In this document: in pieces, positions 1 through 63,737 of the stretch
How the letters are laid out: every line of letters begins with the position of its first letter
How positions within the stretch are numbered: the stretch's first letter is position 1
NCBI RefSeq assembly: GCF_017983445.1
Contig: NZ_JAGOBJ010000012.1
Coordinates: forward strand, 20,523 to 84,522
Direction: 5' to 3'
Length of the DNA stretch: 64,000 nt
Source of the DNA: Halomonas sp.
GTDB taxonomy: Bacteria > Pseudomonadota > Gammaproteobacteria > Pseudomonadales > Halomonadaceae
Notes under the pieces: model-generated
What the model was told of the DNA's origin: nothing
Database searches by the model: none
The model's input: only the letters and a program-made list of their open reading frames with translations
Position numbers and translations under genes: made by a program

Positions 1-2040
1 CAGCTGGGCCAGCCACCAGCTCATGGCCATAAGCCCTACGGTAATCAGCGCCATGGCGACAGGCCTCATCGCCAGAGGGGTTTCCATCTGCTCTGACATG
101 GCCGCAATGGCCACTACCGGCACTAACGCCAAACCTAGTCCACGGAGCAGCTCGCGAAGCCGAGCATTGTAATGGGCCGACCAGGTAAAATGCCGCTCGG
201 CCACGCCATCAGCCACTAACAGCCTGCGCCCCCACGCTACCACCGCCCAGCTTAAGGCCAACTGCAGCAACGCCGGCGAAACGCTATGGGACAATGCGCC
301 TTGCGTTGCGCTAAGCCCTACCCCTACGCCTGCCAGTGCTAACGGCCGGGGGATAGCCAGCAGCGCGTTTAGAAGCACCGCTTTTGGTGTGTGCAGCTGG
401 GTATCGCTTTTCAAACGACCAATCTGTGAATGAATTGCGGCAAGACCTGTCTTGATACGCCGTCGCAAGCCCACAAGCAGCAGGCTAATCAGTAGCAGAG
501 GGGCGCCGCTAAGCACCTCCCAGGAAACGCCCTGCCAGTGGCTGGGCAAAATGGCTCGCCACTCGCCTTCCCGCCATTCCAGACGCGCATTGTTGGGCAA
601 TTGTCGCACCCAGTTGAGATCCAGCGGCCGACTGTTAGCCACCCAGAATAACTGCTCATCGATAGTCGTGCGCAGTTCTCGCGTGGTGGTTAATAGCTGC
701 TGCTGGTTAAGCTGAAGTTCAATGGCAGCGCTGAGCAGACTGCCATAGGACTGCTCCAATTGCTCAACCAGCTCACGACGCGACTGGTAAAGCCGTGAAA
801 GCGAACTGACCAACCCAGGGGTAACCTCAAGACCAGCCTCTTCCAGCCGCTGAGTCGCCAGCCGCTCGCCCTGACGCAGCTGGTCGCGTTGGCGAATCAA
901 GTCAAACTGCTTTAATCGCAGGTCGGCAATTTCGTCCTGAAGGTCACGACGCGGCACAATAGGTGGCAACGATTGGCGCTGCTCACGCAGAATTCGCGAG
1001 AGTAACTGGCTGCCACGAATAGCATCAATCTGCTCGTTAAGACTGCGCTGCAGCTGGCGCACGTGATCCAGCAGACGCTGCGCTTCGATATTCTCACGTA
1101 CGATGCTATTGGAGCGATCGGTCGCACGTAGCAGCTCCAAACTAAGCTCTTGGTTGATTTGCTGGGCACGCAAGACAACCGGGTGTCCTTCAGCGATTAA
1201 AGGATCATCCCTGGCGGCATCGGCGATCGCCTGTTCCGACTGCAGGCGGCGCTGCCTATCAATCGCCCCCTGTAATAGATTTAAGCGCTGCTCCTGACGG
1301 TCGATTTGCATTGAGAGCAGATCACGCCGCTGTTGCGCCAGCTCACGTAGGCGGCTATTGGCGCTCAGCTCACGCTGATTGTAGGTTACCTCGCGTTCCG
1401 CCAATGCGCGCTCAAGCCGCAGCTGGATCAGCTGAGCATCGTTCAGGGCCGAGAGCTGCCGATCCGCCAGGAGCGCTTCGCGCTCATCATGCTGGCGGCG
1501 TAAAGTTTCAATACGCTGGAGCGACTCGGAAATCGCCTGCTGGGCTCGCTCGGGAAGAGTCTGGGCAGAGAGAAGCTGCGAATTCACTTCCGCCAGTTGA
1601 CTCTGCAGCTGTTGTAGCTCCACGACGGCGTCTGTCTGCTGTGCTTCAAGCGTATCAAGCGGCGTATCGGTTAGATCGGTAACCGTTAATTGCTGACTAC
1701 CATCGTTAATATCATTGAGCTCGCGCTCCAATAACTGCCGCTGTTCTGGCGCCTGCTCAACACGCTGAGTCAATGCTGACAGACGCTCATCAACCGCGCT
1801 TAACCGCTCATAGGCCTGCAGGGCCGCCGTGAGCGCATCTCTATCGCGGCCTTGTTGAGCCGTAAGTTCGCCCTCAACCGCATCTAGTTCGGCGAGCCGC
1901 TCGGCCAGCTCTTTTTGGAGAGGAACCCGATCAAGCGGGGAGTTATCTGCCGCGTGAACATGAACGCAAGCTACCAATACCCACACGATAAGCAGGCTTC
2001 TAACAAGCCAACTGCCAGCAAATCTCACCACGTTAATCAT
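1..2040 (-). CDS. mscK: KefA/MscK-type mechanosensitive channel, N-terminal 680 residues (runs off the window)
   Basis: The reading frame is open from the ATG at 2040 to the window edge, so only the first 680 codons are present. It starts with a signal peptide (about residues 1-30, ending VHVHA). A very long Gln/Glu/Arg-rich coiled-coil periplasmic region follows, then hydrophobic helices towards the window edge; the last 20 codons form a membrane segment. Large MscK/KefA channels (about 1,100 residues) have this order: periplasmic porin-like domain, extra transmembrane helices, then the MscS pore domain. The pore domain would lie outside the window. Role known from the family: release of solutes on hypo-osmotic shock. 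The exact subfamily (MscK, MscM/YjeP) cannot be settled without the C-terminus. It is divergent from pldA. Confidence 0.8.
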   Translation of the reverse strand, partial: MINVVRFAGSWLVRSLLIVWVLVACVHVHAADNSPLDRVPLQKELAERLAELDAVEGELTAQQGRDRDALTAALQAYERLSAVDERLSALTQRVEQAPEQRQLLERELNDINDGSQQLTVTDLTDTPLDTLEAQQTDAVVELQQLQSQLAEVNSQLLSAQTLPERAQQAISESLQRIETLRRQHDEREALLADRQLSALNDAQLIQLRLERALAEREVTYNQRELSANSRLRELAQQRRDLLSMQIDRQEQRLNLLQGAIDRQRRLQSEQAIADAARDDPLIAEGHPVVLRAQQINQELSLELLRATDRSNSIVRENIEAQRLLDHVRQLQRSLNEQIDAIRGSQLLSRILREQRQSLPPIVPRRDLQDEIADLRLKQFDLIRQRDQLRQGERLATQRLEEAGLEVTPGLVSSLSRLYQSRRELVEQLEQSYGSLLSAAIELQLNQQQLLTTTRELRTTIDEQLFWVANSRPLDLNWVRQLPNNARLEWREGEWRAILPSHWQGVSWEVLSGAPLLLISLLLVGLRRRIKTGLAAIHSQIGRLKSDTQLHTPKAVLLNALLAIPRPLALAGVGVGLSATQGALSHSVSPALLQLALSWAVVAWGRRLLVADGVAERHFTWSAHYNARLRELLRGLGLALVPVVAIAAMSEQMETPLAMRPVAMALITVGLMAMSWWLAQL

Positions 2041-4043: not shown

Positions 4044-4317
4044 GCCGCCCAGCCGTGCTGAACGTAAAGCGGCGTTACTGGCTCAGCTTGAGCAGCAGCG
4101 TGTCGATATCTTGGTGTGTAGCGAATATCTGCAACGCTCAGCATCACCGCTTGACCAAAGTTGGCGCAGTATTAAGCTGCCGCTTTACGCTGCTGGCGGC
4201 CTGTTGGCATATAAGCTCGTACGGCGCCCAGGTGGAGTTATGGCGGCTGGCAGAAAAGGACTTGCAGGCTATATGCTATTTCGTAAACTGAAGTTGCTAG
4301 CTAAAATTGCCAGTTAA
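4018..4317 (+). CDS. yqjK: YqjK-like small protein
   Basis: 99 residues. It begins 26 bases inside yqjE, preceded by GGAG in the yqjE coding sequence (GTGAACGGAGATG). The N-terminal 45 residues are charged and helical, followed by SWRSIKLPLYAAGGLLAYKLVRRPGG with one hydrophobic stretch and a basic tail. Position and length match YqjK, the third gene of the yqjD-yqjE-yqjK set; sequence similarity to that family is loose by eye. No specific function is known for the family. The operon probably has a role at the inner membrane in stress or stationary phase (inference from E. coli YqjD). Confidence 0.65.
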   Translation: MKQTDKSVEPPSRAERKAALLAQLEQQRVDILVCSEYLQRSASPLDQSWRSIKLPLYAAGGLLAYKLVRRPGGVMAAGRKGLAGYMLFRKLKLLAKIAS

Positions 4318-4330
4318 GTGCTTGCTACAC

Positions 4331-4378
4331 GAGTTTATTACTGCCTGAGTTCGTTACTGCCTGGAATCGTTACTTGAG
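4331..4378. repeat. 16-bp tandem repeat, three copies, after yqjK
   Basis: Three consecutive 16-bp units: GAGTTTATTACTGCCT, GAGTTCGTTACTGCCT and GGAATCGTTACTTGAG. The first two differ at two positions; the third has diverged. They fill most of the 99-bp convergent gap between yqjK and the flavoprotein gene. No terminator hairpin is obvious here. One of about a dozen intergenic tandem repeats in the window with similar period but unrelated sequence. Confidence 0.8.
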
Positions 4379-4416
4379 CTTGTACTAACTAAGCTTGCCA
4401 GGTCGCAGCATGCGAT

Positions 4417-5601
4417 TTAGCAAGCTTGGCCACAGGCCACCCCACTTGCCCAAGCCCATTGAAAGTTATACCCGCCAAGCTCCCCCGTCACATCCAGCAC
4501 TTCCCCTATAAAGCGTAATTGAGGTAGATCTTTGACCTCAAACGTTTTAGATGACACTGCATTAGTATTAACTCCTCCCATGGTCACTTCAGCAGTACGC
4601 CACCCTTCTGTTCCGGCGGGCTTAAGCTGCCATTGATTAAGCCGACAGGCCCATTGATCCAACTCATCATTGCTGTATTGAGCTAATGGTTTGAGCTGGT
4701 TTGAGTCGGGATACCACTCCAGAAGCGCTTGAGCAAATCGTTTGGGGAAACGCTCACCCAGCCAGGTTGAGAGCTGACGTTTAGGGGTCATTTGGCGTGC
4801 ATCGCGTAGTGAATTTGCGGCACCTTCATTCGCCAGCAGATCGATTTCAATGGGCGAACCTGGGTGCCATACGCTGGATATTTGCAGTATGGAAGGCCCA
4901 GACAGTCCGCGGTGAGTAAACAGCATGGGTTCGACAAAACGTCGCCCGGCACAGCTAACCGCCACAGGTAAACTGACCCCAGAAAGATCTGCACAACGCG
5001 CCTTCCAGAAGTCACTCAGGGTAAATGGCACCAGCCCTGCCCGAGTAGGCAATACCTCCAGGCCAAACTGACGGGCGAGCTCATAGCCGAAACCGGTGGC
5101 GCCCATGGTCGGTATGGATAAACCACCACTTGCCACTACCACTACCCCGGCATCAATAACGCCCATTGAGGTAGAAAGACGCATACCCTCGCCTTGCCTC
5201 ACGACCTTCGTGATCTGGGTATTGAGCTTTACCTCGACGCCTGCCCACTCACATTCAGTCCATAATACACGCACGATTTCCTTGGCAGACGTTGCACAAA
5301 ACAGCTGGCCTGGTGCTTTCTCAATGTATTCCACGCCATGCCGGTCGACCAGCTCTACAAAGTGTTCAGGCCGGTAGCGTTTAAGCGCTGAAATACAAAA
5401 ATATGGATTTTCAGAGTAAAAGTGCTGAGGTGTTGTGCCAAGATTGGTAAAGTTGCAGCGGCCACCGCCTGACATGAGTATCTTTTTACCTGCTTTGTTG
5501 GCGTGGTCGAGCACCAGAACGCGTCGGCCTGCATAGCCAGCCTGTGCTGCACACATTAAGCCAGCCGCACCGGCGCCGATAACCACGACATCATAAACCA
5601 T
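4417..5601 (-). CDS. HI0933/BaiN-type FAD-dependent oxidoreductase
   Basis: 394 residues. The N-terminal dinucleotide-binding motif VVIGAGAAGLMCAAQAG (about 6-22) is followed by the hallmark KILMSGGGRCNFTN (about 40-53). A middle insert domain is followed by a C-terminal return to the Rossmann fold ending with FIGEVLDVTGELGGYNFQWA. This is the HI0933 / YhiN family of soluble flavoproteins, which includes the Clostridium enzyme BaiN; the physiological substrate in proteobacteria is unknown. Length matches the family. It is divergent from the RND pump genes with a 222-bp gap that contains a repeated 15-mer. Confidence 0.88.
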   Translation of the reverse strand: MVYDVVVIGAGAAGLMCAAQAGYAGRRVLVLDHANKAGKKILMSGGGRCNFTNLGTTPQHFYSENPYFCISALKRYRPEHFVELVDRHGVEYIEKAPGQLFCATSAKEIVRVLWTECEWAGVEVKLNTQITKVVRQGEGMRLSTSMGVIDAGVVVVASGGLSIPTMGATGFGYELARQFGLEVLPTRAGLVPFTLSDFWKARCADLSGVSLPVAVSCAGRRFVEPMLFTHRGLSGPSILQISSVWHPGSPIEIDLLANEGAANSLRDARQMTPKRQLSTWLGERFPKRFAQALLEWYPDSNQLKPLAQYSNDELDQWACRLNQWQLKPAGTEGWRTAEVTMGGVNTNAVSSKTFEVKDLPQLRFIGEVLDVTGELGGYNFQWAWASGVACGQAC

Positions 5602-37606: not shown

Positions 37607-37682
37607 TGGCTCCTCGAACAGGACTCGAACCTGTGACCCAATGATTAACAGTCATTTGCTCTACCAACTGAGCTATCGAGGA
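37607..37682 (-). tRNA. tRNA-Asn (anticodon GTT), promoter-distal copy
   Basis: 76 nt including CCA. Minus-strand acceptor TCCTCGA / TCGAGGA with discriminator G, D arm AGCTCAGTTGGTAGAGC, anticodon loop CTGTTAA (GTT), T arm ACAGGTTCGAGTCCTGT. Identical to the two copies to its right; probably one transcript. Confidence 0.97.
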
Positions 37683-37734
37683 ATAACGCGCTACCTGGTA
37701 CGACTGACCAAACAGGTAGTGAAATAGAAAAGCT

Positions 37735-37810
37735 TGGCTCCTCGAACAGGACTCGAACCTGTGACCCAATGATTAACAGTCATTTGCTCTACCAACTGAG
37801 CTATCGAGGA
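37735..37810 (-). tRNA. tRNA-Asn (anticodon GTT), middle copy
   Basis: Same 76-nt sequence as the neighbouring copies, separated by 52 and 46 bp. The spacers are not alike, so the array is not a very recent exact duplication or the spacers diverged quickly. Confidence 0.97.
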
Positions 37811-37856
37811 ACATCTTAAGCTATTGTGTTTCAAGCAGAACCAATCTTTAAAGTGT

Positions 37857-37932
37857 TGGCTCCTCGAACAGGACTCGAACCTGTGACCCAATGATTAACA
37901 GTCATTTGCTCTACCAACTGAGCTATCGAGGA
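37857..37932 (-). tRNA. tRNA-Asn (anticodon GTT), promoter-proximal copy
   Basis: Same 76-nt sequence as the other two. It is closest to the promoter at 37953-37980 and heads the presumed three-tRNA transcript. Confidence 0.97.
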
Positions 37933-59731: not shown

Positions 59732-61000
59732 ATGAGCGATACTGCAAAACCCTGGACGCAAACCATGCCGGAAGCACAGTTCAAGCTGATGCGCGATATT
59801 CTGGCCGCACCCAGCCCGGTGGGTCTGGAAGGGGCAATGACCTACGGCGTCTTAAAGCCTTACTTTGAGACGTTTGCCCCTGACAGCTGGCATCTTCACC
59901 AGTTCAAGGGCAACGCAGGCGTGGTTTTGGATACTCACCCTGACCGTCATGATATGTTCAAGGTCATGATTATCGGCCATGCGGACAAGATCCGCATGCA
60001 GGTACGCTCAATTGGCGAAGACGGTAAAATCTGGATCAACACCGATTCGTTTTTGCCTTCCGTACTGATCGGTCATGAAGTGAAGCTTTTCAGTGAAGAC
60101 CCTGAAAAACCCGGCAGCTACCGTTCGATTGAAGGCGGTACCGTTGAAGCGCTAGGCGCCATACACTTTTCCGATCCGGCGGCGCGCACCGGCGACAAGG
60201 GCATCAAGAAAGAGCAGATCTATCTGGATCTGCAGATTCACGGCGAGAACAAGAAGCAGCAAGTGCTTAATCTAGGGGTGCGCCCGGGTGACTCGATTAT
60301 TTTTGATCGCCCTATTCGGCCCGGCTTCAGCCCCGATACCTTCTACGGCGCTTATCTTGATAACGGCCTGGGCTGCTTTGTGACCGCTGAAGTCGCGCGG
60401 TTGATTGCCGAAGCAGGCGGTACTGACAAGGTGCGCGTCATGTTTGCCATTGCAAGCTACGAAGAGATTGGCCGTTTTGGTAGCCGAGTCATGGCCGGTG
60501 AGCTAAAACCCGACGCGTTGATTGGTGTGGACGTGAACCACGACTACGTAGCCGCTCCGGGTATCGGCGATAAGCGTATGCAGCCGCTGGAAATGGGCAA
60601 AGGCTTTACGATGTCGGTCGGCTCCATTGCCAGCGAGCAGTTGAATCGCATTATCGCCAGCGCCGCTAAAGAGCAGGATATTCCTATTCAGCGCGATATG
60701 GTGGGTGTGGATACGGGTACTGACGGTATGGCGGGCGTATTGGCCTCTATTGATAGCGCCGCCACCTCTATCGGCTTCCCGATTCGTAACATGCACACCA
60801 TCTCGGAAACCGGCAACACGAAAGATGTACTGGCGGCGATCCATGCGCTTACCCATACCCTGCTGGCGCTGGATAAACTGCCTAACCTTGAGCGTGAATT
60901 TTTAGATAATCACCCGCGTCTGGATCAGGCAAGCCCGCTTGGTCATCAGGGCCATGCAAAGCCTGAGAACGTAATGTCTGAAAACAGTGATGAAAAATAA
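59732..61000 (+). CDS. M42-type metallo-aminopeptidase
   Basis: 422 residues; TGGAGAG lies upstream of the ATG. Two-metal peptidase residues are visible: His and Asp in IIGHADKIRMQV, the bridging Asp in FYGAYLDNGLGCF, the catalytic Glu pair in ASYEEIGRFGSR, Asp in IGVDVNHDY and the last His in RNMHTISETGN. The order is that of the M42 (glutamyl aminopeptidase / TET) family. The first metal motif is GHADKI rather than the usual AHMDEIG, and the C-terminal 40-residue tail is polar. Cytosolic. It is followed on the opposite strand by a candidate regulatory RNA. Confidence 0.88.
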   Translation: MSDTAKPWTQTMPEAQFKLMRDILAAPSPVGLEGAMTYGVLKPYFETFAPDSWHLHQFKGNAGVVLDTHPDRHDMFKVMIIGHADKIRMQVRSIGEDGKIWINTDSFLPSVLIGHEVKLFSEDPEKPGSYRSIEGGTVEALGAIHFSDPAARTGDKGIKKEQIYLDLQIHGENKKQQVLNLGVRPGDSIIFDRPIRPGFSPDTFYGAYLDNGLGCFVTAEVARLIAEAGGTDKVRVMFAIASYEEIGRFGSRVMAGELKPDALIGVDVNHDYVAAPGIGDKRMQPLEMGKGFTMSVGSIASEQLNRIIASAAKEQDIPIQRDMVGVDTGTDGMAGVLASIDSAATSIGFPIRNMHTISETGNTKDVLAAIHALTHTLLALDKLPNLEREFLDNHPRLDQASPLGHQGHAKPENVMSENSDEK

Positions 61001-61047
61001 GCATTTTATGTTGAATAAGAATGCTTTGGCGTCAGTACTGCTGGCAT

Positions 61048-61207
61048 AAAAAAAGCCCCGGCCAATGCTCGGCCGGGGCTTTATCAGGTCCTCCGTAATA
61101 TTTCCTCACAAACATCCTGTTCGTGCATCCCTGGGCAACTCAAGCACTCCTTGCTTGTTCTTCCTGGCCACCTTCCCTGTGGTACTGCCTACCTTGAACC
61201 TTAAATA
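61048..61207 (-). ncRNA. CsrB/RsmZ-like CsrA-sequestering small RNA, copy 1
   Basis: About 160 nt on the minus strand, ends approximate. It carries eight GGA motifs. Three are in hairpin loops: CACGAAC-AGGAT-GTTTGTG (61125-61107), CAAGCA-AGGAG-TGCTTG (61157-61141) and CCAC-AGGGAAG-GTGG (61182-61168). It ends with an intrinsic terminator, AAGCCCCGGCC / GGCCGGGGCTT plus T7 (61084-61048). The first hairpin pairs fully only as a minus-strand RNA (a G-U wobble; A-C mismatch on plus), which supports the strand. A -10-like element is at 61219-61214. The repeated GGA-loop design is that of CsrB, CsrC, RsmY and RsmZ, which bind and inhibit CsrA/RsmA. It is homologous in layout and partly in sequence to the RNA at 62939-63100. 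Confidence 0.7.
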
Positions 61208-61453
61208 TGTCAGATACATTAATTCAGGATAATAAATTTGAAAAAAATCCAACAGGCAGGCCATACATTGAGCCAGCTAAGTTGGCTTTATTATCCTCAC
61301 GTCTGCTGAAAAAAGAAGGCGATTAAGGCGCCAGCCCTCATACCAAAGTCTACCCTTTGCGACCAACGGCGTATAAACGAAAGTGGTAGCATGCTCTCTC
61401 CTTATGGTTAGCAGATTGCTAATAAATTCATGCTGTAGCGCCAGGAGAGGCGG

Positions 61454-62908
61454 ATGGGAATGTCATTATCGAATTGGCGCCACTGGGTGCCATTACTAGC
61501 AGGGCCACTCCTTTTTATATTGATTCAATTATTACTGCCCGACACGTTGATTGATCCAGCGCCCCGGACGGTTCTCGCCTTGACGGTTTGGATGGGCACC
61601 TGGTGGGTAACCGAGCCCGTACCTATTCCCATTACGTCTTTCCTGCCTATGTTAGTGCTGCCCTTAAGCGGCGTGATGGTGCTGGATGAAGCCGTGGTGG
61701 GCTACGCCAACCCGGTTATCTATATGTACATGGGCGGGTTTATTCTGGCGATTGCCATTGAGCGCTGGAACCTGCACCGGCGTATTGCGCTGGCCATTGT
61801 TAATCGCATTGGCAATAGCCTGCGCAGCATCGTGCTGGGGGTTTTGATTGCCTCGGCGTTTCTATCCATGTGGATCTCAAATGCCGCCACGGCACTTATG
61901 ATGTTGCCCATTGCCGTCGCGCTTACCAGTGAGCTGGACGAACGCGACCAGTTTGATCGCAATCAGCGCGATAGCTTTGCGCGTATTTTGCTCCTAACCG
62001 TTGCTTACTCGGCCTCTATAGGCGGGCTGGCAACGATTATCGGCTCGGTACCCAACGCTATTGTAGTCGCGATGATTCCCCAGTTTTTTGAAGGCGTGGA
62101 AATCAGCTTCCTGCAGTGGATGATTTTTGCGCTGCCGTTAACCCTGATTCTGCTGGCGGTGCTGTATGTTTACCTCACCCGAATCTATGCCAAGGTACCC
62201 AATACACCGCTTGAAATTGATTTTGTCGCTCAGGAGCTAGCGTCTTTAGGCCCCATGAGCCAGGAAGAAAAGCGTGTTTTAGGTGTGTTTGTGGTGACCG
62301 CCCTGGCCTGGGCATTACGCGGCTGGCTGGCACCATTTTTCGATCTCCCCATTAACGATACGCTGATTGCGGTAACCGCCGCCATTGCGCTGTTCGTGAT
62401 TCCCGCTCACAACGAGAAACGGGCCCTGCTGGTGTGGGACGATATGAAAAGCTTGCCGTGGGGGCTGTTCATTCTCTGGGGTGGCGGCATGACGCTGGCC
62501 GCGGCATTTGTCGCAAGCGACTTAACCGGCTGGATCAGCAATCAACTCCAACTTCTGGATGGCGTGAACTACTTCTGGCTGCTATTGATTATGGTGCTAT
62601 TGATGCTGTTCTTGACCGAGATTATCTCGAATACAGCGACGGCCAATATGGCGCTACCTATTACTGCAGGCATGGCCGCAGCGATCACTACTGGCAACCC
62701 GCTAGGATTGATGGTGGCCGTCGCGCTGGCGACAACGTGTGCATTTATGCTGCCGATTTCCACGCCACCCAACGCGGCCGTCTTTTCAACAGGGCGTATT
62801 ACCATCAAGCAAATGGCCAAAGCAGGCTTTGCCATGAATATCGTAAGCGCAATTGCCATTACGCTATTTGTTTATTTTATTATGCCGCTGCTCTTACCTT
62901 CGCTTTAA
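61454..62908 (+). CDS. SLC13/DASS family sodium-coupled anion symporter
   Basis: 484 residues; AGGAG lies before the ATG. About 11-12 membrane helices. Family marks are WWVTEPVPIPITSFLPMLVLP near the N-terminus, SMWISNAATALMMLPI (first SNT-type Na/substrate motif) and FLTEIISNTATANMALPI (second SNT motif). The C-terminus is FMLPISTPPNAAVFSTGRI with the conserved PPNA. Homologues move C4-dicarboxylates, citrate or sulfate with Na+; the substrate is not assignable. It is flanked on both sides by the two related minus-strand GGA-loop RNAs. Confidence 0.93.
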   Translation: MGMSLSNWRHWVPLLAGPLLFILIQLLLPDTLIDPAPRTVLALTVWMGTWWVTEPVPIPITSFLPMLVLPLSGVMVLDEAVVGYANPVIYMYMGGFILAIAIERWNLHRRIALAIVNRIGNSLRSIVLGVLIASAFLSMWISNAATALMMLPIAVALTSELDERDQFDRNQRDSFARILLLTVAYSASIGGLATIIGSVPNAIVVAMIPQFFEGVEISFLQWMIFALPLTLILLAVLYVYLTRIYAKVPNTPLEIDFVAQELASLGPMSQEEKRVLGVFVVTALAWALRGWLAPFFDLPINDTLIAVTAAIALFVIPAHNEKRALLVWDDMKSLPWGLFILWGGGMTLAAAFVASDLTGWISNQLQLLDGVNYFWLLLIMVLLMLFLTEIISNTATANMALPITAGMAAAITTGNPLGLMVAVALATTCAFMLPISTPPNAAVFSTGRITIKQMAKAGFAMNIVSAIAITLFVYFIMPLLLPSL

Positions 62909-62938: not shown

Positions 62939-63100
62939 AAAAAAACCCCCGACTATTACTGGCCGGGGGTGATTTAGTTCGTCCTTAATCTTGCTTCATG
63001 AACATCCTGTTCATGCTTCCTTGTATACCGCAAATATCCTTATTTGCTCTTCCTTGCTGCGCTGTCCTTGCGCCATGTCGCTACAATGGACCTTAAAGCG
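62939..63100 (-). ncRNA. CsrB/RsmZ-like CsrA-sequestering small RNA, copy 2
   Basis: About 160 nt on the minus strand, ends approximate. It carries six AGGA motifs. Three are in hairpin loops: CATGAAC-AGGAT-GTTCATG (63015-62997), GCAAATA-AGGA-TATTTGC (63047-63030) and GCGC-AAGGACA-GCGC (63073-63059). It ends in an intrinsic terminator, CCCCCGGCC / GTCGGGGG plus T7 (down to 62939). The -10 is GATAAT (63111-63106). The 5' end TTTAAGGTCC, the CTTG/AAGGAA spacers and the ACAGGATGTT hairpin line up with the copy at 61048-61207, so the two look like diverged duplicates around the symporter gene. Confidence 0.75.
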
Positions 63101-63119
63101 TCTGAATTATCTAACCCAG

Positions 63120-63737
63120 GTTATGAAAAGTTAAAAATAATAATTTTTTATAAAAATATAATTCACATTCTAACTAATTAAATTCTAAAATTTAAAATCA
63201 ATAGTTAAATAGATATTGGAAATATTAGTTAAATAAAAAAAGATATCTCCATCTTATATCTTTTTGGCCTTAAAGGCTGCAAAAATAATCGATTAATGTT
63301 TTTTACTAGGTAAAGCTAATATAAAACGTGCCATATAGTTACATATTAAAAACTAATCGATAGAAGTCAATAGGTATTAAATTTAATCATAAAAAATCGT
63401 TCAATCAATTGATTAGCTCAAAATCACCACTTGAAAGCTAATCATAATGAGCATTTATAATATAGTTAGGTATCGGCCTACTAATTTCAGTAGATTATCT
63501 TTCTCTCTTTCAGACTCACCCGCCCACCTTTACTCGAAAGCATCCCACACATTTTCAAACGACAGATGCTTGTAACCGCGCCCTCATATTATACTTTTGT
63601 ATAACAAGGCATTTTAAACCTGAATAAAAAATAAGCAGATACTCCCCATATCAGGGATTTTAACCGCAAAAATACGCTTCATTATCGCTTTAATTCAGTA
63701 TCGCAACGCTTTCGTACAATAACGTTACAATTTTTAC
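63120..63737. other. AT-rich stretch without a gene
   Basis: About 620 bp with no supported ORF and much lower GC than the rest of the window. It holds several inverted repeats. AAAAAGATAT / ATATCTTTTT is at 63237-63265, GATTAGCT / AGCTAATC at 63411-63443 and CTACT / AGTAG near 63478-63493; AATCGATTA-like words also recur. It lies between two candidate regulatory RNAs and probably contains their upstream control regions. Nothing further is recognised. Confidence 0.6.

Follow-up and report, generated by a model that had tools for sequence, protein, structure and literature searches.

Marinomonas mediterranea belongs to the same order as the bacterium whose DNA is described here. Its CsrB and CsrC RNAs, which are GGA-rich, stand under a system of the BarA/UvrY type and were detected by RNA-seq, measure about 456 and 655 nt from their printed positions and have GacA boxes, a site given as TGTAAGN6CTTACA (PMC8523701). 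GGA motifs in hairpin loops and linkers are described as the signature of CsrA in a 2020 review, which presents RsmW and RsmV as Gac-independent members and whose table credits Azotobacter vinelandii with RsmZ1-7 and RsmY1-2 (PMC7366521). The number of these sponge RNAs was correlated with the number of CsrA by Moll et al., according to PMC7911923. The same review table gives the sponge RNA of Halomonas anticariensis as 'Unknown' (PMC7366521), and the literature searched with the genus names Halomonas and Vreelandella, mostly without subscription papers and supplements, names no Csr/Rsm sponge RNA for either genus.

We analyzed a 64-kb window of DNA from Halomonas sp. (assembly GCF_017983445.1, contig NZ_JAGOBJ010000012.1, positions 20,523 to 84,522 of the forward strand), in which two loci very probably encode CsrA-sequestering small RNAs of the Csr/Rsm kind, as judged from sequence and genome comparison. 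The genus of the source and of the same-genus genomes is Vreelandella, the records being titled Vreelandella or Halomonas. A preliminary description of this DNA had proposed one such RNA at 61048..61207 on the minus strand. The locus holds, but its extent and number were revised: the likely transcript, here called copy b, covers 61048..61195 (minus strand), with a start placed by the invariant CA of the alignment, and it is one of two in the window; a third, divergent one lies on another contig of the genome. An own-genome search with copy b recovered a related stretch at 62939-63057 (minus strand; 72% identity, E 1.1e-9), which is part of copy a (62939..63087, minus strand, start likewise inferred). 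Between the copies lies a DASS/SLC13 symporter gene (61454..62908, plus strand; TIGR00785, 276.8 bits), and convergent to copy b is an M42-type aminopeptidase gene (59732..61000, plus strand), whose name relies on NCBIfam matches below cut-off and on the preliminary description. Both copies are intergenic and non-coding, and each has its own terminator.

The features attributed to copy b in the preliminary description were all recovered. A recount over 61047-61207 gave the eight GGA motifs on the minus strand, and the three hairpins with GGA in their loops are present as hairpin 1, CCAC(AGGGAAG)GTGG (61168..61182), hairpin 2, CAAGCA(AGGAG)TGCTTG (61141..61157), and hairpin 3, CACGAAC(AGGAT)GTTTGTG (61107..61125), all on the minus strand. 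The described GC stem and T7 correspond to an intrinsic terminator of 14 pairs and seven T (61052..61082, minus strand), in which the first three of the seven T pair within the stem. One hairpin was said to pair perfectly only as minus-strand RNA, and this is hairpin 3, whose G-U pair becomes A-C on the plus strand. Copy a likewise presents three GGA hairpin loops, GCGC(AAGGACA)GCGC, GCAAATA(AGGA)TATTTGC and CATGAAC(AGGAT)GTTCATG, before its terminator.

Eight GGA in 125 nt occur in 38 of the 127,752 segments on both strands of the 64-kb window, and all 38 are at copy b. The number itself is unexceptional, being reached by 179 of 2000 dinucleotide shuffles of copy b; the placement of GGA in hairpin loops is exceptional, since only 6 of 2000 shuffles reach six by a permissive count in which some alternative hairpins are also taken. 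Copy a taken alone is unremarkable for both GGA number and loop GGA (197 and 144 of 2000 shuffles). Both strands of copy b fold better than shuffles, so that the strand was chosen from the GGA motifs, the T-run and the promoter-like motif rather than from folding energy.

Of 58 genomes sampled with blastn, 25 carry copies, counting the own genome, and all 25 belong to the 37 genomes of the same genus; at least two copies are present in 19 of the 25 and three in two of them (G019 and G020). Across 16 examined gaps between neighboring copies, the symporter gene intervenes as in the window in three (G022, V. zhanjiangensis; G026, V. populi; G034, V. songnenensis), a 71-codon ORF intervenes in 11, and the copies almost touch in two (G021 and G004). 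One such ORF gave no Pfam match at E 0.01. The 71-codon ORF contains cysteines, as at L056:2742-2957 (minus strand), between copies a and b of that locus.

The alignment of 44 of the 46 copies (A1, which leaves out the expanded copies G026a and G034a) provided evidence for a conserved RNA structure. Its RNAalifold consensus is made up of hairpin 2, hairpin 3 and the terminator hairpin, with 22 pairs in all; 96.0% of the cells are paired, and changes on both sides occur in 19 of the 22 pairs, including 10 of the 12 outside the terminator. The covariation totals were not equaled by any of 500 shuffles, and sliding the structure by 1-3 columns lowered pairing to 31-46%. A second alignment, A2, agreed in this test, A2 having been fitted to the covariance model R1. 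Hairpin 1 is absent from the A1 consensus, and at its site a GGA loop is closed by at least four pairs in 34 of the 44 copies. The GGA motifs are retained from the 5' side at hairpin 1 (42/44), the following linker (37/44), hairpin 2 (37/44), the linker after it (44/44), hairpin 3 (44/44) and the next linker (42/44), and the terminator loop carries GGA in 23/44. The preliminary description had expected conserved GGA loops among homologues, and this expectation was borne out: the loops of hairpins 3, 1 and 2 keep GGA in 44, 42 and 37 of 44 copies, with compensatory pairs in stems 2 and 3.

At the Rfam gathering score the 64-kb window yielded five tRNAs only; at 37610-37932 (minus strand), three consecutive tRNA genes share the same covariance score. 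In the permissive mode of Rfam, copy a matched PrrB_RsmZ (RF00166; 24.6 bits, E 0.0012, gathering 44) and copy b matched RsmY (RF00195; 17.3 bits, E 0.057, gathering 57), so the Rfam comparison suggested in the preliminary description was weakly positive, with both matches below gathering. For copy b unrelated families outscore RsmY, all sub-threshold, and we read these higher-scoring matches as terminator-driven. One locus of the sister-genus genome G171 matched CsrB (RF00018; 33.2 bits, E 6.9e-6, gathering 71), and across the tested loci no family of clan CL00106 (RsmY, PrrB_RsmZ, CsrB) reached its gathering score. By score, the window RNAs belong to no single Rfam family.

These results allow other readings of the locus to be weighed. 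If the terminator alone were functional, possibly serving the convergent peptidase gene as well, the GGA motifs would be chance occurrences in a purine-rich spacer, a reading favored by GGA numbers within the range of shuffles in both copies (179 and 197 of 2000) and by the terminator-driven look of copy b's highest-scoring Rfam matches below threshold. Against it, GGA persists at six positions in 37-44 of the 44 copies, stems outside the terminator covary, and copy a adjoins a different gene; the covarying stems of hairpins 2 and 3, together with the GGA conservation, were our grounds for rejecting it, and we consider it extremely improbable. We give just as little credence to the idea that the locus acts as leader or attenuator for a minus-strand gene downstream, or codes for a small protein, even with a His_leader match (25.9 bits, E 0.039, gathering 49) and a 52-aa minus-strand ORF overlapping copy b in its favor. 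The genes downstream are convergent (the peptidase for copy b, the symporter for copy a), a Pfam search with the ORF returned nothing at E 0.01, and across the initial 110 nt its frame stays open in 6 of the 44 copies, with all three frames closed in 25; the missing Pfam match and the frame not being kept among copies led us to reject this reading.

A conserved RNA whose main mode of action is base pairing with mRNA or binding of another protein is scarcely more probable than these. Such a function would lead one to expect conservation beyond the GGA sites too, and the 44 aligned copies do show it in places, but the best-kept features are the GGA motifs in loops and linkers that characterize CsrA targets in the review cited above (PMC7366521), and the CsrA of the same genome is close to solved chains of the CsrA family. 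The CsrA-sequestering function put forward in the preliminary description is thus supported, at the level of sequence, by conservation of the GGA loops and by the compensatory stems, with Rfam weakly positive.

As proposed, free-standing small RNAs of about 148 nt would be transcribed from both loci and end at the intrinsic terminator. Each would offer 6-8 GGA sites, placed by turns in hairpin loops and in the single-stranded linkers, and its accumulation would draw CsrA dimers off their mRNA targets. GacS/GacA or another regulator may switch both RNAs.

Both presumed partners are encoded in the same genome. CsrA was identified with NF002469 (119 bits, cut-off 73), and GacA, located directly before uvrC, with NF007018 (293 bits, cut-off 280). 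With a GacA presence limit of E 1e-50, the RNA is present in 140 of 252 family genomes with GacA and in 4 of 23 without it (Fisher p 0.0007, kinship ignored). As the genomes are related, this association lends weak support to a connection between the RNA and GacA. A strict link is opposed by same-genus genomes that lack an RNA match, in which GacA is present in 13 of 14, and by two genomes (G191 and G291) with the RNA and no full GacA match.

Start positions in the alignment were set by the invariant CA, which places the palindrome TAACCTAGGTTA at -36 to -25. Copy a is preceded by the promoter-like motif TAACCTGGGTTA and then GATAAT (63106..63123, minus strand), with no mismatches to the motif and 11 of 12 letters of the palindrome. 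In copy b, TATCCTGAATTA (61220..61231, minus strand) occupies -36 to -25 of the inferred start as a degenerate form of the palindrome (8/12), with three mismatches to the longer motif. At 9 or more of 12 letters, TAACCTAGGTTA was found before 38 of 46 copies in Vreelandella and before 38 of 60 loci of a dispersed set from sister genera, against 4.8% of shuffles, a control covering the dispersed set only. Half of the dispersed loci (30 of 60, against 5.4% of shuffles) have an upstream GacA-box-like site with at least 9 of 12 letters, and 29 of the 60 have their best-scoring site exactly 8 nt ahead of the palindrome. The corresponding count in Vreelandella is 4 of 46 copies, with the 8-nt spacing in none of the four. 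Beside copies a and b no GacA box within three mismatches was found, the nearest being about 480 nt away and at chance level. Several of the 'a' copies (G001a, G010a, G021a) also have a conserved palindrome-like element, AAACGTGCATGATTGTATGTTT, about 60 nt before the promoter motif, which is possibly an operator of the neighboring gene.

The window RNAs fit the Csr/Rsm functional kind in every tested feature except the GacA box, a usual but not strictly defining site that known Gac-independent members lack too. They resemble RsmZ, RsmY and RsmX of Pseudomonas in their size range, in GGA motifs placed in loops and linkers, in the terminator, in a GacA-type regulator in the genome, in the presence of more than one copy and in weak model matches; they differ in scoring below gathering, in the TAACCTAGGTTA palindrome and in having no recognizable GacA box. 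The principle is the same as in enterobacterial CsrB/RsmB (RF00018, model length 356), but the window copies are short, and the CsrB match of the G171 locus remains below gathering. The M. mediterranea RNAs differ from them in their greater length and in their GacA boxes (PMC8523701).

The third locus of the genome (G000:C4:69838-69984, plus strand; L086:1501-1647) is a divergent GGA-rich RNA that scored 51.2 bits (E 3e-10) with R1, a model in whose construction it had no part; copies b and a, which scored 158 and 142.9 bits, are themselves R1 training sequences. The third copy has no match to Rfam clan CL00106 and folds no better than shuffles (z -0.89). Two weaker matches occur in the same genome (E 0.07 and 0.17). 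A match at L087 (26.9 bits) and plus-strand model matches inside the window (24.6 bits and lower) were judged to be terminator matches and dropped.

Covariance models were used to evaluate how widely these RNAs are distributed. R1, built from own-genus copies only and run on whole genomes, finds loci in sister genera and matched 132 of 250 family genomes at E 1e-3. The wider model R2, built from A2 and thus from an alignment fitted to R1, matched 144 of 275 family genomes in 11 of 24 genera at E 1e-5, including 68 of 82 Vreelandella genomes (own genome included), with 10 candidates scored per genome. Outside the family, seven of 293 genomes sampled from the order matched, the best at 3.8e-10.

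Copy number varies greatly within the family. Four sister genera (g35, g40, g41 and g44) include some genomes with many loci, and many other family genomes have one locus or none. In a recount of high-copy genomes with R2, in which 150 candidates were scored, G171 gave 21 matches (19 non-overlapping), G174 gave 14, G164 gave 14 (13 non-overlapping), G183, G199 and G172 gave 11 each, G242 and G273 gave 10, and G193 and G156 gave 9. Three of the nine in G156 lie close together, and G199 is a single contig. R1 matches numbered nine in G070 (Litchfieldella xinjiangensis), eight in G079, eight in G094 and seven in G218 (Halomonas korlensis). The 60 inspected matches of the dispersed set (six genomes, two overlapping pairs) contain 6-13 GGA each. 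Neighboring matches could be parts of one longer transcript. A guanidine-II riboswitch match above gathering (41 bits; L177:141-191, minus strand) was observed near an Rsm-type RNA of G172.

CsrA is present in 270 of the 275 family genomes and is a single gene in 261. The 14 high-copy genomes have one CsrA in ten cases, two in G164 and G079, and three in G171 and G174. G171 and G174 are among the genomes with the highest match counts, and their three CsrA genes fit the correlation of Moll et al. In g41, six genomes (G183, G199, G242, G273, G193 and G172) combine 9-11 matches with one CsrA each, so sponge number does not track CsrA number there. At G171:C12:20918-22014 and G174:C23:225923-226984, a csrA gene and an Rsm-type RNA match are separated by about 0.7-0.8 kb.

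In two Vreelandella species the upstream copy is greatly expanded. The V. populi copy (L034, about 1290-1690, plus strand) has about 400 nt and 22 GGA, and the V. songnenensis copy (L035, about 4170-4598, minus strand) about 424 nt and 23 GGA, lengths that depend on script-set boundaries. In both, repeated hairpin-linker units are found between an unchanged promoter motif and ends, and the spacing of the GGA loops is 33-34 nt in V. songnenensis and less regular for V. populi. These long forms are similar in length to CsrB/RsmB but keep the promoter motif and ends of the short forms, and neither matches CsrB or clan CL00106 at E 0.05.

What the sequence shows for the window RNAs is a GGA-based design with covarying hairpins and terminators, conservation within the family, a promoter motif common to the copies, and a genome that also encodes csrA and gacA. 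A broader proposal, which we hold tentatively and would sooner doubt than accept, is that CsrA sponging in Halomonadaceae is an open-ended gene family. Some sister-genus genomes would hold 7-19 loci, mostly for one CsrA; one gene would have grown to about 400 nt in two Vreelandella species by repetition of a hairpin-linker unit; and the Vreelandella genes would have been freed from the GacA box, with the palindrome at about -30 kept and perhaps another regulator in command. The spread in copy number, the hairpin-multiplied forms and the change of promoter are the aspects that would surprise specialists.

Halomonas species are used for the production of bioplastics (PMC13414033), and the RNAs described here are candidates for the sponge RNA listed as 'Unknown' for Halomonas anticariensis (PMC7366521). 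The family makes it possible to test why many sponges are maintained for a single protein, whether hairpin repetition turns RsmZ-sized RNAs into CsrB-sized ones, and which factor reads the TAACCTAGGTTA element.
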